Source of the DNA: Microcoleus vaginatus WJT46-NPBG5
Lineage (GTDB): Bacteria > Cyanobacteriota > Cyanobacteriia > Cyanobacteriales > Oscillatoriaceae
DNA: 64,000 nucleotides
Assembly: GCA_019359355.1 (NCBI GenBank)
Contig: JAHHHM010000027.1
Span: 1 to 64,000 of the forward strand
Direction of reading: 5' to 3'
Of this stretch, positions 13,424-18,866 are shown one piece after another. The notes beneath the pieces are model-generated. The model had not been told where the DNA came from. It saw only the letters and a program-made list of their open reading frames with translations, and made no database searches. The translations under genes and the position numbers were made by a program. How positions within the stretch are numbered: the first letter of the stretch is position 1; every line of letters begins with the position of its first letter.

Positions 13424-14899
13424 CTAGATTTTAGATAAAATTGGTACAGTTCCTAAACAAATATTAGTTCCTTCAATTTTACCAACCATTTCAAGTAATC
13501 TATCACTATTTTGCATCAATTCATCCCAACCGGCATCATCAACTTTTTCCACCTGTGCAATCTGAAGCCGGTGTTGCTCAAATACCCAATATTTAATGCT
13601 GGGGATGAGGTAACGAAATAAAGCCATCCATTGTGCCAAGTTAATTGCTAGAGGATTCCCTTGCATCAGTGCAATCTTGCCGCTATTTCCCAAGGCAGCA
13701 ATTCCATGAGCGGCTAACAGCATTGATCTATACTTTGGGTGAGAAGCTAAAGTAAATTTAGTCTCCCCATATTCAGAATAGTGCCTTAGCATAATGTACG
13801 CTCTCAGAACTATCTCAATCACTGCCGGCGTGATTCCAGATACTAAGAAATGCCGAAAATCATAGCCATTTAAATACATCCATCGAGCCACTTCGCCAGC
13901 AGTCCGATTTTTCTCTCCAAAGCTGCCGGTATTAATTCCTTGAATCAGCGTCATAAAAGGAGCCGGCAACCCCATAGGAGTTGCCACATCAGAAATCAAA
14001 TGCCCAATTTGTCGCAAAATCGCTTCAATTAATCCGACAGTTTGGCTTGCCGGCACCCCTTTAATCTCAAAATTGTGAAGGCTACTGAGTTTATCATAAG
14101 AAAAGCCGGTGATCGTTCCCCGCATGATATCAAGCACACCAAACACAAATCCCAAAACAGGATCATGTCCTAATGATTGAAAGCGGTGCGATTTGGGATA
14201 CATTCCCCCGATAAGTTTTTGATTATCATAGGGAACTTTGCAGGTTTTCTCAAGGGATCTCGCCCATTGAGCAAACCAGTCATCCGATTTTTTGATGTCA
14301 TATTGCTTAATCCATGCAGTTATCGGACTCCCAATTTGTCCACTGTATTCCTCGGTGTTTATTGTTGCCGGGATTTTGACTAATAGAAAGTCTGTGAGTG
14401 ATGCCAAAACACCACTTGCACCCACAAAAATATAATCCCACTGATCCCAAGCGTACTGAGCCTGATAGGACTCATCCCGCAGTTTTTTGAAGTCTTGTTC
14501 TGTTAGCAGTGCTTCGTAAGGTGCTAAAGAAATATTTTGAAAACCGTCTTCCTTATTGCATTCATGCTGAAGTGCTGAAATTTGGCATTCTCTGACAAAA
14601 CTATCCCAATCTTTGAAGCCAATTTTGATTAACTCTTGGGAAATAGCGGCACGCCGGTTATCATATAACCGCAGAATTTCATCTGCATTAAAATCACTCA
14701 AATCATCTTCATCAAGCAACTCGACAGATGCTTCTAATTCTGCCATGAGCTTCTCAAGCTCTTGGATTTGTTGAGCTTGGTTAGAAACATCTGCGAGTTT
14801 TACTTCCACATCTGACACCACAGCCTTAAGCTGTTGCAGAATACGATTTTGTATGTGCAACACAGCATTTAATTCAGCAGCAAACCGCTCTGAAACCAT
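13424..14899 (-). CDS. unknown membrane-associated protein with coiled coil and YdjM-like His/Asp motifs
   Basis: 491 residues from ATG 14899, chosen over an upstream in-frame ATG (14929) because CTCCT on the plus strand (AGGAG in the mRNA, 14906-14910) sits 6 bases before it and the ATG follows the previous stop by one base. Residues 5-60 form a coiled coil (AVVSDVEVKLADVSNQAQQI). Hydrophobic segments lie near 157-172, 248-262, 290-303, 350-372 and 395-435. Two conserved-looking motifs, SHRFQSLGHDP (237-247) and GHLISDVATPMGLPAPF (299-315), resemble the HRxxTHS and HxxxDxxTxxGxPxxxPF motifs of the YdjM membrane hydrolase family, which suggests metal binding. No close family recognised. Third gene of a leftward cluster with the two repeat-headed proteins. 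Confidence 0.7.
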   Translation of the reverse strand: MVSERFAAELNAVLHIQNRILQQLKAVVSDVEVKLADVSNQAQQIQELEKLMAELEASVELLDEDDLSDFNADEILRLYDNRRAAISQELIKIGFKDWDSFVRECQISALQHECNKEDGFQNISLAPYEALLTEQDFKKLRDESYQAQYAWDQWDYIFVGASGVLASLTDFLLVKIPATINTEEYSGQIGSPITAWIKQYDIKKSDDWFAQWARSLEKTCKVPYDNQKLIGGMYPKSHRFQSLGHDPVLGFVFGVLDIMRGTITGFSYDKLSSLHNFEIKGVPASQTVGLIEAILRQIGHLISDVATPMGLPAPFMTLIQGINTGSFGEKNRTAGEVARWMYLNGYDFRHFLVSGITPAVIEIVLRAYIMLRHYSEYGETKFTLASHPKYRSMLLAAHGIAALGNSGKIALMQGNPLAINLAQWMALFRYLIPSIKYWVFEQHRLQIAQVEKVDDAGWDELMQNSDRLLEMVGKIEGTNICLGTVPILSKI

Positions 14900-14900
14900 C

Positions 14901-16217
14901 TTAAACTCCTGCCTGTTTGCGCTTGGCAAGTAACTGCTGTAAGTAACGCATCTTTTCAGTTAAAATGCGAATGGCTTCCCGGTTCATCTCGGCATCAGCA
15001 GCGGCTTTCTGTAACTCCTCTATTTTTTCTATCACTCCATTGAGTGTTTCTTGAAGGTTTTTAATCACCAGTTGAGCTTTGCGTTCTTTCTCGGCTTGGA
15101 ATTGTGCTTTTTTCTGTTTGTCGCCTGTATCTAGTAAGTGGGATACACCCATGAATATACCTGTACCCAAAAGAACCGCAACACCAATGCCGGGAACCAT
15201 TCCCCCCACACCGACAAATGCACCTAATGCTGCTAATCCAGAGGTAATTCCTGCTGCACTTAATCCAATGACTGATCCGCAAAGATAAACGGCTGCAATG
15301 GGAATACCTACCGCAGATAAGCCGGCAGCCGCAGTTTTTATTGCATCCGCAGCTTGGTTATCATCTAAACCCCGAGCGCGGATTTTTTTCATTTCTTGGA
15401 TAAACTTTTCAATGGCTTTTACTTGTTCATTTGTTATCCGTAACTCCTGCTGTGCGAGTTGAATTGCTTTTTCCTCATTAGGATCAAGTTCATCATTAGC
15501 CCAAGCAGTGTCGATGAGGTTAACCATCAAGCTAAACCGAAGGTTTTCATCGGCACTTGATAGGGTTTTTAAGCACTCATGTAATGCCGGCGGCTCAATA
15601 ATATAGGATTGTATTAGGCGTTTTGCCGGCTCAGACATTCCCTCTAAATCCATAATTCCAAAGATGAGTTCCATCTCTTCTTTGTCGAGGGAACCGTCAG
15701 CAGAGGCAATTGCAAAAAGCGCACCATAAAAAGCTACGCGCTCACTTTCTGTTAATTTGGCAAAGTCTAAAGTTTGATTCGTCGATTTACCACTTTCATT
15801 AGCTATTTTTGCAGCGGATTGAGTTGCCCCTGATGCCGCACTGCTGATAACTTCTTTTGCCTTAAGGGCGGTTTTCGTTGCCGCTACCGTTGCCCCGGAT
15901 GCGCCGATGCTCATCGCTTCACCGGCTTTGGCTGCTGTCTCTGATGCCGCACTGCTGATAACTTCTTTTGTCTTAAGGGCGGTTTTCGCTACAGCTACAG
16001 TTGCCTCTGATGCGCCGGCGCTAATGGCTTCACCGGCTTTGGCTGCGGTTTTCGCTACAGCTACAGTTGCTTCTGATGCGCCGGCACTAATCGCTTCACC
16101 GGCTTTGGCTGCGGTTTCTGTTGCCGCTTGCGTTGCTTGTGCGGCAGCGTTACTAATTGTTTCTCCAAACCCTGTTGCTGTGTTTGTCAGGGATTTCCAA
16201 AAGTTTTGCTGTGTCAT
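14901..16217 (-). CDS. unknown protein: Ala-rich 22-residue repeats, TerB-like domain, glycine-rich membrane segment, coiled coil
   Basis: 438 residues. 1-34 is a head nearly identical to that of the next gene. 35-140 is built of 22-residue units (AAKAGEAISAGASEATVAVA twice, then ALKTKEVISSAAS types), encoded by near-exact 66-base repeats; they would form long amphipathic helices with lysines at the edge, as in apolipoproteins and synuclein. 157-275 is TerB-like: ALFAIASADGSLDKEEMELI and a second acidic NDELDPNEEKAI, a fold that binds metal or partner proteins in tellurite/stress systems. 298-362 is a Gly/Ala-rich hydrophobic stretch enough for two membrane passes. 375-435 is a coiled coil. 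Stop is one base from the next gene's start, so both are surely cotranslated. Function unknown. Confidence 0.75.
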   Translation of the reverse strand: MTQQNFWKSLTNTATGFGETISNAAAQATQAATETAAKAGEAISAGASEATVAVAKTAAKAGEAISAGASEATVAVAKTALKTKEVISSAASETAAKAGEAMSIGASGATVAATKTALKAKEVISSAASGATQSAAKIANESGKSTNQTLDFAKLTESERVAFYGALFAIASADGSLDKEEMELIFGIMDLEGMSEPAKRLIQSYIIEPPALHECLKTLSSADENLRFSLMVNLIDTAWANDELDPNEEKAIQLAQQELRITNEQVKAIEKFIQEMKKIRARGLDDNQAADAIKTAAAGLSAVGIPIAAVYLCGSVIGLSAAGITSGLAALGAFVGVGGMVPGIGVAVLLGTGIFMGVSHLLDTGDKQKKAQFQAEKERKAQLVIKNLQETLNGVIEKIEELQKAAADAEMNREAIRILTEKMRYLQQLLAKRKQAGV

Positions 16218-16412
16218 AAGTGGTAGAGGTAAAAAGTTAAAAATGTAACTAAATAAGTTAGCTCAGAGATTTAAGGATTCTATTTTTTTCATGCAAGGGA
16301 ATTTTGTCAGAAATTTTAGATTTCAGTAACTCATGCGAATTTCGTTGAAAGCCTCTTTAATTAAGAAAATGAGAATCCTTAAAGATAAAATCTGCTGGAA
16401 TTTATAGGGGTT

Positions 16413-17981
16413 TTATTCAGCCTCACTCTTAATTTCAATACCAAACTTATTGATAATAGTTTCTATGACTTGCGTTTCTTCTGGGGTTACGACTCCATCT
16501 AATTGAGCTATTTTTTGACATTGAGCGAGCAGTGGCACTGCAAAATCACTATTAATTTGAGCAAGCAAGGTTTCTAAGGAGGGGGGAGATTTAATGTTAG
16601 CCGTAATTGCTTCTAATGATGCAGGACTGAGATTCAAACTTTGCAGTTCTGGCAACAGTTCTTCCCCTGTTTTATCTGGATTGCCGGCTAAAAAAACATG
16701 AATCAAAGTTTGATCCATGATCACTTCTTGCGAGATTGCACCTTCTAAATATTTTTCAGTCTCAACTATCAGTTCTTGCGAGATCGCACCTTCTAAATAT
16801 TTCTCACCCTCAATCTGACAATCTCCAACAGTGCCTTGCAAAACTAATAAATTTTGCTGCTTGGCTTCATAAAAACGACAAGCCCCATATCCGAGTGCGT
16901 AAATCATTGCTGCATTCGTGCTTGCACCAATCATTGCCCCAGCCACCGGCACATTTCCCAGCCAGCCCAAACCGGCTTCAAGCGCTAAAGTTCCGCTCAC
17001 AGACAAAGTAAAGATTGTGAGAACTTCCGCTTTGCGAGCGCTCGATTGTAAATCTTGCCCATAAGCAGCCGCGATCTGATAAATCAATTCTGCTGAAAGA
17101 GCAGTCATCGCTGCCAAATCAACGCCTGCCATTGCCAGTGCTGCTCCCGGCACCAAGTTGCTAGCCAAACCTGAGCCGGCTGCAAGCACGGTTTTATCTA
17201 CCATCAAACGATGAGCAATCTTTCTTGGTTCTTCGTTAGGATACTGTTGCTGTAGGTTTCTGACTTCAGCTTCGGCTTTAGGAACATCCACTTTATCTAT
17301 GAAGCGAATTAGCCAATCAGTCGTTACGTTTTTAGCATTTTGAATGGTTTTTCCGGTAGCATCCCTAATAGGTGCAGCTGCATTTGTAGCTTTTTTCGCA
17401 ACAGTTTGACCGGCTTTGGATGCAGTGTTAGCGATTGCACCGCCAACTTCCGTCGCTTTCCCCACAACTGCTTTACCGGCAACAGAGGCAGCGCCGGCGA
17501 CGACTCCGCTTACTCCTAAAGATTTCCCAACGACGGCTTGACTTGCCTCTGATACGGCACTGCCAATGGCTTCACCAGCTTTGGCTGCTGTCTCTGTCGC
17601 CGCCACAGTTGCTCCTGATGCCGCACTGCTGAAAAATTCTTTTGCCTTGAGTGCAGTTTCCGTTGCCGCTACGGTTGCCCCTGATGCCCCACTGCTGATA
17701 GCTTCACCGGCTTTAGCTGCTGTTTTGGCTACAGCCATCGATGCTCCTGATGCAGCACTGCCAATGGCTTCGCCAGCTTTGGTGGCTGTGCCTGATGCCG
17801 CACTGCTAATGGCTTCGCCGGCTTTGGCTGCTGTGCCTGAGGCTGCACTGCTAATGGCTTCACCGGCTTTGGCTGCTGTATCTGTTGCCGCTTGTGTTGC
17901 TTGTGCGGCAGCGTTACTAATTGTTTCTCCAAACCCTGTTGCTGTTTTTGTCAGTGATTGCCAGAAATTTGACTGTGTCAT
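16413..17981 (-). CDS. unknown protein: Ala-rich repeats, EcsC-like domain, TerB-like tail
   Basis: 522 residues. The head (MTQSNFWQSLTKTATGFGET) matches the neighbour's with few changes. 35-210 carries Ala-rich units (TAAKAGEAISSAASG, ALKAKEFFSSAASGATVAAT). 222-375 resembles EcsC/DUF697 proteins: WLIRFIDKVDVPKAEAEV, then LVPGAALAMAGVDLAAMTAL with AELIYQIAAAYG, then GWLGNVPVAGAMIGAS, an alternation of helices and small-residue hydrophobic segments. A 16-residue duplication EKYLEGAISQELIVET lies at 393-423. The end (485-520, LLAQCQKIAQLDGVVTPEET) looks like one TerB helix pair. First gene of the leftward cluster, 195 bases before the next. Role unknown; membrane association likely. Confidence 0.75.
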   Translation of the reverse strand: MTQSNFWQSLTKTATGFGETISNAAAQATQAATDTAAKAGEAISSAASGTAAKAGEAISSAASGTATKAGEAIGSAASGASMAVAKTAAKAGEAISSGASGATVAATETALKAKEFFSSAASGATVAATETAAKAGEAIGSAVSEASQAVVGKSLGVSGVVAGAASVAGKAVVGKATEVGGAIANTASKAGQTVAKKATNAAAPIRDATGKTIQNAKNVTTDWLIRFIDKVDVPKAEAEVRNLQQQYPNEEPRKIAHRLMVDKTVLAAGSGLASNLVPGAALAMAGVDLAAMTALSAELIYQIAAAYGQDLQSSARKAEVLTIFTLSVSGTLALEAGLGWLGNVPVAGAMIGASTNAAMIYALGYGACRFYEAKQQNLLVLQGTVGDCQIEGEKYLEGAISQELIVETEKYLEGAISQEVIMDQTLIHVFLAGNPDKTGEELLPELQSLNLSPASLEAITANIKSPPSLETLLAQINSDFAVPLLAQCQKIAQLDGVVTPEETQVIETIINKFGIEIKSEAE

Positions 17982-18209: not shown

Positions 18210-18866
18210 TCATGCTTCCGGTTCAATTCCCGCCGCTCTTAACTGCGCGGCTAATCGTTCCGCTCGTTGTTGCGCCAACTCCTTTTGCTGTCGTTCCTGC
18301 TCTCGTTGCTGATATAACTCCAGATAATCAACAAACTTTTCCCCATTTGGTGCGTAGAGTTCCAACCCCTCATCATTCAACTCAAACCGCACCCCCAAAC
18401 GTGGAGAAACCCAGCCGCTCATTGGATCAATAACATCTAATAATCCTTCCGTGCGCCGCCATCCCCTCAAATCTTTATCTGCTGGATCGTATAAATAATA
18501 TTCTTCGACTCCGTAACGGTTATAAAACACTAACTTTTTATCCATCTTTGTCTGACTGTCGCTTTCTGATCGCACTTCAAAGATGACTTGGGGGGCGATA
18601 TTTTCTTCTTGCCATTGTCTATAAGATTTCCGCTCGCTTTTGCCTCTTCCAAACACGACCATTACATCCGGGGCTTGGCAGATGTTGGAATTTCCCTCTA
18701 CCGGATACCAAAATAAATCGCCGGCTACGAATACATTTGGATCATCTTTAAAGATTGCGTCACAGCCGCCCTTAATTTGAGTAATCCATCTGTACTGAAT
18801 TGTACTATCTGCCATCGGTTGACCGTCACTGGATGGGTAAATGATTTGTTCCGTTATAAGTTGCAT
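18210..18866 (-). CDS. Uma2-family (DUF820) nuclease-fold protein
   Basis: 218 residues. The core is the PD-(D/E)xK-like fold of the Uma2 family, very expanded in cyanobacteria: a first acid in QAPDVMVVFGRGKSERKSYR, then the catalytic strand PQVIFEVRSESDSQTKMDKK and the closing YNRYGVEEYYLYDP. Motif spacing is normal and key residues (D in PDV, E in FEV, K after the D) are present. The C-terminus (185-215) is a Gln/Arg-rich helix, common in the family. Uma2 genes are often linked to mobile DNA but their biological role is not established. It follows the repeat-protein cluster in the same direction, with 228 bases between, so linkage is possible but unproven. Confidence 0.9.
   Translation of the reverse strand: MQLITEQIIYPSSDGQPMADSTIQYRWITQIKGGCDAIFKDDPNVFVAGDLFWYPVEGNSNICQAPDVMVVFGRGKSERKSYRQWQEENIAPQVIFEVRSESDSQTKMDKKLVFYNRYGVEEYYLYDPADKDLRGWRRTEGLLDVIDPMSGWVSPRLGVRFELNDEGLELYAPNGEKFVDYLELYQQREQERQQKELAQQRAERLAAQLRAAGIEPEA

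Follow-up and report, generated by a model that had tools for sequence, protein, structure and literature searches.

The window analysed here, a stretch of 64,000 nucleotides from Microcoleus vaginatus WJT46-NPBG5 (contig JAHHHM010000027.1), carries at positions 13424-17981 three leftward open reading frames (ORFs), which were confirmed and are named, from upstream to downstream, E (522 residues), A (438 residues) and B (491 residues) (Table 1). On profile evidence, A and B are the BnzA and BnzB proteins of the known two-gene antiphage system Bunzi, and the new element of the locus is the upstream gene E, an EcsC-family gene beside the Bunzi pair. The three leftward genes and the single base between the TAA of A and the ATG of B are as given in a preliminary description of the sequence, and 195 bases separate E from A. 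The ATG at 14899 was taken as the start of B, a TTG at 14929 being less likely. A sigma-70 promoter scan was uninformative (5 found vs 7.4 expected).

Bunzi was reportedly described as an antiphage system by Millman et al. in 2022. In PADLOC, A matches BnzA at 8.3e-46, with residues 142-428 placed on profile positions 145-442 of 544, and B matches BnzB at 3.9e-84 (profile coverage in Table 1). Since both proteins match Bunzi profiles, the locus is for the most part not the undescribed three-gene module that had been proposed; the two genes lie side by side in several phyla, whether or not a third gene accompanies them. The window agrees with Bunzi in both proteins, in the adjacent order A-B and in the TerB domain of A. 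It differs in the repeat head on A, in the EcsC gene placed upstream, and in the 144 N-terminal and 102 C-terminal positions of the BnzA profile to which nothing in A corresponds. TerB is listed for both Shango and Bunzi in one account (PMC10952713), and a 2026 review gives the mechanism of Bunzi as unknown (PMC12926258). Shango, described as TerB, ATPase and helicase in another source (PMC10250203), likewise has a TerB domain in an antiphage operon, but neither an ATPase nor a helicase gene is found among the three window genes. Sequence searches of the PDB with A, B and E were uninformative.

Table 1. Features of the E-A-B locus in window coordinates
Feature	Position	Strand	Evidence
Gene E: EcsC-family protein, 522 residues, repeat head and weak TerB-like tail	16413..17981	-	ORF; Pfam EcsC 2.8e-7, TerB 0.016
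E head, residues 1-207: Ala-rich amphipathic repeats of 15/22 residues after an FW motif	17361..17981	-	peak 97.5-98 degrees per residue
EcsC domain match, E residues 207-329	16995..17363	-	Pfam PF12787
TerB-like tail of E, residues 484-516, sub-threshold	16434..16532	-	Pfam PF05099 E 0.016
Gene A: BnzA homologue, 438 residues	14901..16217	-	PADLOC BnzA 8.3e-46; Pfam TerB 2.6e-5
A head, residues 1-142, of the E-head type	15792..16217	-	periodicity and 66-bp tandem array 15979-16117
TerB-like domain of A, about residues 150-235, borders approximate, by eye	15513..15770	-	Pfam TerB, best stretch 113-195
Gly/Ala-rich hydrophobic stretch of A, residues 292-362, GLSAAGITSGLAALG	15132..15344	-	Kyte-Doolittle segments
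A C-terminal charged, coiled-coil-like stretch (putative)	14904..15131	-	sequence
Gene B: BnzB homologue, 491 residues	13424..14899	-	PADLOC BnzB 3.9e-84, profile 11-503 of 504
Conserved BnzB core, residues 130-462	13514..14512	-	alignment of 42 sequences; AlphaFold2 pLDDT (predicted local distance difference test) 89.9, pTM (predicted template modelling score) 0.84

TerB on A and EcsC on E, domains that had been read from the sequence, lie above their Pfam cut-offs (24.9 vs 24.4 bits and 30.9 vs 30.4 bits, respectively); the TerB-like tail of E stays below threshold. TerB was also matched in A of L024 (Argonema, 35.9 bits), L051 and L033 (loci and genomes are designated by L and G numbers). 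In A of L025, L026, L028-L030, L034 and L052, a rough motif search places TerB near the start, without a head. The Gly/Ala-rich hydrophobic stretch is present in all 27 A-type sequences computed, among them the window A and the A proteins of 181-189 residues from Clostridia and from an Enterobacter plasmid. These short proteins have no TerB motif in the rough search, which also misses L023 and L031, whose A proteins do resemble TerB; the Enterobacter protein, the only short A scanned with Pfam, gave no TerB up to E 1. In PADLOC, the single Enterobacter pair scanned matches BnzA at 4.2e-6 and BnzB at 6.5e-53. The constant part of A seems to be the hydrophobic stretch rather than TerB, and the stretch is probably a membrane hairpin.

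BnzB matches occur in 11 of the 388 genomes of the class, this one included, and, counting fragments and again this genome, in 6 of 60 relatives. At E 1e-20, with the central genome counted, they occur in 13 of 391 genomes in the class of a Ruminiclostridium metagenome-assembled genome and in 3 of 251 in the phylum of Chloroploca. A BnzA-type gene was detected next door in 10 of 22 named loci (L023-L026, L028-L031, L033 and L034). Nine of the other 12 (L036-L044) are distant, at 31-40% identity, and most of these belong to a second B clade of about 430-450 residues; the clade-1 loci with no detected A are L027, L032 and L035. Within the second clade, the product of the upstream gene, read at six loci (L036, L038, L040, L041, L043 and L044), has a Gly/Ala-rich hydrophobic stretch as well, computed for five of the six. 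Two further PADLOC systems show some likeness to A, LeoBC to its hydrophobic and following part and PDC-M09A to the clade-2 A genes of L038 and L114, but these matches are weak and the partners are different. Pairs of BnzB relatives with BnzA-type genes were seen in cyanobacteria, Chloroflexota, Actinomycetota and Planctomycetota. BnzB relatives are also carried on 11 viral contigs and on 498 plasmid records, none of which covers 80% of the query. The plasmid records agree with the carriage of Bunzi in Salmonella, where, according to one report, a plasmid-borne system is often on IncHI1 (PMC11305592). One plasmid copy, in Priestia, lies near type I restriction genes, with two genes between.

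Gene E shares with the EcsC family PF12787 a domain match just above the cut-off, and differs from it in the long repeat head, the TerB-like tail and the linkage to BnzA-BnzB; E of Argonema is below the cut-off, at 28.0 bits. E lies directly upstream of A-B in five genomes, namely the window, G001, G002, Argonema (L024) and PMM_0008 (L023), and is open in four of them. Between the window genus and Argonema the three genes keep the same order at about 67-73% protein identity. The sole E match of the Argonema genome (E 1e-5) is the linked one, and its E-A gap is 25 base pairs (bp). The linked E proteins form one clade among 35 E rows (support 100/100), and the B proteins of the linked loci form one clade among 27 B rows (99/99). 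Considering both trees, one joining of E, followed by inheritance together with the A-B pair, is the simplest explanation. The closest unlinked E in the tree comes from G373, outside the 11 BnzB-positive genomes. No publication joining EcsC to Bunzi was found among titles and abstract openings. Within E, a 48-bp tandem duplication at 16720-16813 doubles a stretch of 16 residues located after the EcsC match and before the TerB-like tail. It is also noted that an unlinked EcsC paralogue of this genome (L005:2192-3472) matches the PADLOC candidate PDC-S29 (2.2e-9), unlike the window E.

The products of E and A begin with the same head, as the preliminary description had it: over 43 codons from the start, identity is 91.5% for DNA and 90.7% for protein. 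Past these codons come Ala-rich repeats, whose periods are 22 and 15 residues. Self-identity at lag 22 reaches 0.49 in A and 0.45 in E, compared with about 0.1-0.2 at most other lags, which upholds the 22-residue Ala-rich units; spacings of 15, 37 and 44 residues are also prominent. Tandem arrays of 45, 66 and 111 bp were found with TRF, the 45-bp array of the E head being at 17746-17891. As to the motifs first named for these repeats, KAGEAI is indeed the common core, but KTKEVI occurs only once. Recent conversion of heads within a genome was considered and is not a clear result, the E-A head DNA identity over 43 codons in three genomes being 86.0-91.5% within genomes vs 86.0-90.7% between genomes.

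The hydrophobicity of the heads peaks at 98 (A) and 97.5-98 (E) degrees per residue; an 11-residue, 3-turn helix has 98.2 degrees per residue. Composition shuffles reach the amphipathicity of either head in 0 of 1000 trials, and the control with position-permuted 22-mers gives p values of 0.0055 for A, 0.002 for E residues 11-142 and 0.0005 for E residues 11-207, so the repeats are strongly amphipathic, as had been predicted. A 3-11 helix is described for perilipin 4, apolipoproteins and alpha-synuclein, and the latter two are stated to fold on lipid contact (PMC5889406). The window heads resemble these proteins in a periodicity near 98 degrees over 100-200 residues and in having few bulky residues, but differ in their 15-/22-residue units, their bacterial origin and their fusion to folded domains. 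A and E have no synuclein, apolipoprotein or LEA match in Pfam up to E 10. Among 37 further heads, 27 have their peak within the helix band of 94-103 degrees, and the composition shuffle gives p ≤ 0.05 for 26. The eight of these that belong to Bunzi proteins (seven on A, near copies included, and one on B of L027) all peak at 96.5-100 degrees.

In L027 the head is fused directly to B, with similarity to B starting at B residue 75 and repeats before it. B of L035 resembles this fusion, but its 5' part crosses a run of N; the B motifs are intact in both. Because the head is fused to B where BnzA was not found, the head and A seem able to replace each other as membrane tethers. The head could thus be an optional tether, usable on A or on B.

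Across 42 B sequences, down to about 20% identity, the residues D225, H238, H245, P247, G250, H300, D304 and P314 are invariant (window numbering; L120, with a stop inside B, was left out of the alignment). An AlphaFold2 model of the B core, built from 42 homologues, is confident (Table 1), and with this model Foldseek gave no match at E 0.001 either in the PDB, where the highest TM-score among the 50 rows shown was 0.24, or in BFVD. A full-length model from 26 homologues was of low quality (pLDDT 58.1), and the fold search made with it gave nothing meaningful. The Pfam families shown for B are all weak, the best at E 0.0039. The invariant His and Asp residues suggest that B may be a metal-dependent enzyme. 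Very distant BnzB relatives in the class of G432 (L125-L130; E 4e-29 to 2e-40), which have HH in place of an HR motif and other neighbours, are possibly a further branch of the family.

The preliminary description had seen YdjM-like motifs in B, and B could accordingly be placed in the YdjM family (PF04307) of membrane-associated putative metal hydrolases. By eye, the two share the motif order D...HR...H...xxxDxxTxxG, and the hhalign local score of 22.8 exceeds the maximum of 20.0 in 60 column shuffles. However, the profile-profile alignment spans only 21-23 columns, with a probability of 2.5-9% and an E-value of 0.0035-0.019 for one pairwise test, and is not significant. PF04307 is absent among the families shown for 26 B members (first 25 of 39, E up to 10) and for 42 B members (first 25 of 51, E up to 1), and is not one of the five Pfam families of the window B; no YdjM structure is among the 50 rows shown of the core fold search. 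Membership was rejected on the absence of PF04307 among the families shown and on the short alignment, and is in our judgement improbable.

The operon of the window genus is flanked by a Uma2-family gene and a 100-residue gene, within the interval between what we take to be thiL and ppi (these names, and efp, were assigned from the sequences). All three genomes of this genus that were examined carry the operon at a single syntenic site. G004, with thiL and the 100-residue gene about 150 bases apart, has an empty site. In G006 the same interval is occupied by ThiF, ubiquitin-like, UQ_con and JAB genes with a kinase gene, in G003 by an RTX-repeat gene and others, and in Argonema, whose E-A-B locus is on a different contig, by another gene. 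This site acts as a hotspot for cargo genes. An Argonema-type locus in G038 is broken, with a HEPN_Swt1 gene between fragments of E and of B. The protein between the fragments (L047:8619-10526, minus strand, 635 residues) has a Swt1-like HEPN domain (2.5e-34) and a phosphonate-type periplasmic binding domain (1.8e-19), has no PADLOC match and sits as though the central part of the locus had been exchanged for it. The operon in the sister-genus genome G006 (L137:3319-9405) comprises ThiF (E1), weak ubiquitin-like, E2 and JAB genes and a protein kinase. The Uma2-family gene upstream of E (18210-18866) matches the PADLOC candidate PDC-S03 (3.6e-9); such a gene is also at the site in G001-G003 and G006, and a Uma2-like gene, by sequence, adjoins A in L051.

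With a probability of roughly 0.65, we propose that A-B is the Bunzi antiphage system, that a single capture, within one cyanobacterial clade, brought the EcsC protein E into the operon as its third member, and that A tethers a latent effector, B. The family membership of A and B by profile, the gene order, the co-descent of E, the shared 11/3-type heads, the hydrophobic stretch of A and the conserved B core are established; from these we infer membrane binding, sensing, activation and cell death. A would be anchored in the membrane by its hairpin and, here, by the head, and would hold B through the TerB domain and the coiled coil. B, probably a metal-dependent enzyme, would stay latent as long as the membrane, or a bound ligand, is undisturbed by phage infection; the phage-caused disturbance of the membrane would free or activate B, and the infected cell would be harmed and stop or die (abortive infection). 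E may share the same membrane patches via the same head and help in sensing or assembly while being inessential to the pair. In its direction, membrane-linked defence with amphipathic repeat heads, the preliminary description is supported. A bolder form of the proposal is rather unlikely: a three-protein antiphage complex that would coat membranes with synuclein/perilipin-like helices on two of its proteins, read the membrane change caused by phage and unleash a BnzB of non-PDB fold, with the helix fused to the enzyme where BnzA is lost.

Several observations weigh against the main proposal. The BnzA profile is matched over only part of its length, the window E has no PADLOC match up to E 10, and the metal site of B is proposed from conservation. 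No BnzA was found in the L027 or L035 genomes at E 1e-3, in a run that held no positive control. E is degraded in PMM_0008 next to open A and B, and is therefore dispensable there. The adjacency expected of the module holds for A and B in many genomes, but for E in one clade of five genomes only; among 10 assessable cyanobacterial clade-1 loci, E is adjacent in five (open in four) and non-adjacent in the other five. These loci (the window, L045, L046, L023-L026, L034, L050 and L051) have A, interrupted by N in L050, and at least 1.3 kb of upstream sequence; L052 and L055 (contig ends) and L047/G038 (A missing) were left out. Among the unlinked E heads, cut by a rough rule (L088, with a cut head of <50 residues, was dropped), 10 of 29 have no peak in the helix band, and the head of L061, the closest unlinked E, has no helix periodicity (p 0.82).

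Part of this evidence would also fit E as a chance neighbour, an independent EcsC membrane-stress protein, with local recombination having transferred its head to BnzA (or the BnzA head to it) and with A-B working alone. EcsC relatives occur in 181 of the 388 class genomes and at three places in this genome, and none of the 29 best-scoring unlinked E relatives (L061-L089) shows A or B in flanks of up to 1.5 kb. In the remaining 19 of those 29 unlinked E heads the peak does fall within the helix band, which means that heads of this kind are not confined to Bunzi, and the degraded E of L023 points the same way. However, the E-A-B order kept as far as Argonema, the strongly supported single clades of E and B, and the short E-A gap beside the only E match of Argonema all speak against a chance association, to which we give a real but minor share of belief. 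It is quite improbable that the genes form a housekeeping module for membrane or thylakoid stress or for vesicles rather than defence. TerB and EcsC domains are linked to membrane stress, and a single syntenic site in the window genus would suit such a role, but the Bunzi profile identity, the patchy distribution over the class, the carriage of relatives on plasmids and viruses, the variable hotspot with other conflict genes and the break-up in G038 all argue against it.

Bunzi relatives are widespread on plasmids, and the variant locus with its captured E, as we read it, gives testable hints about the system. The hydrophobic hairpin proposed for A, together with heads on A or, where no A was found, on B, makes the membrane placement of B look central. 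The invariant His and Asp residues, in a confidently predicted fold with no match, mark B as a likely enzyme.

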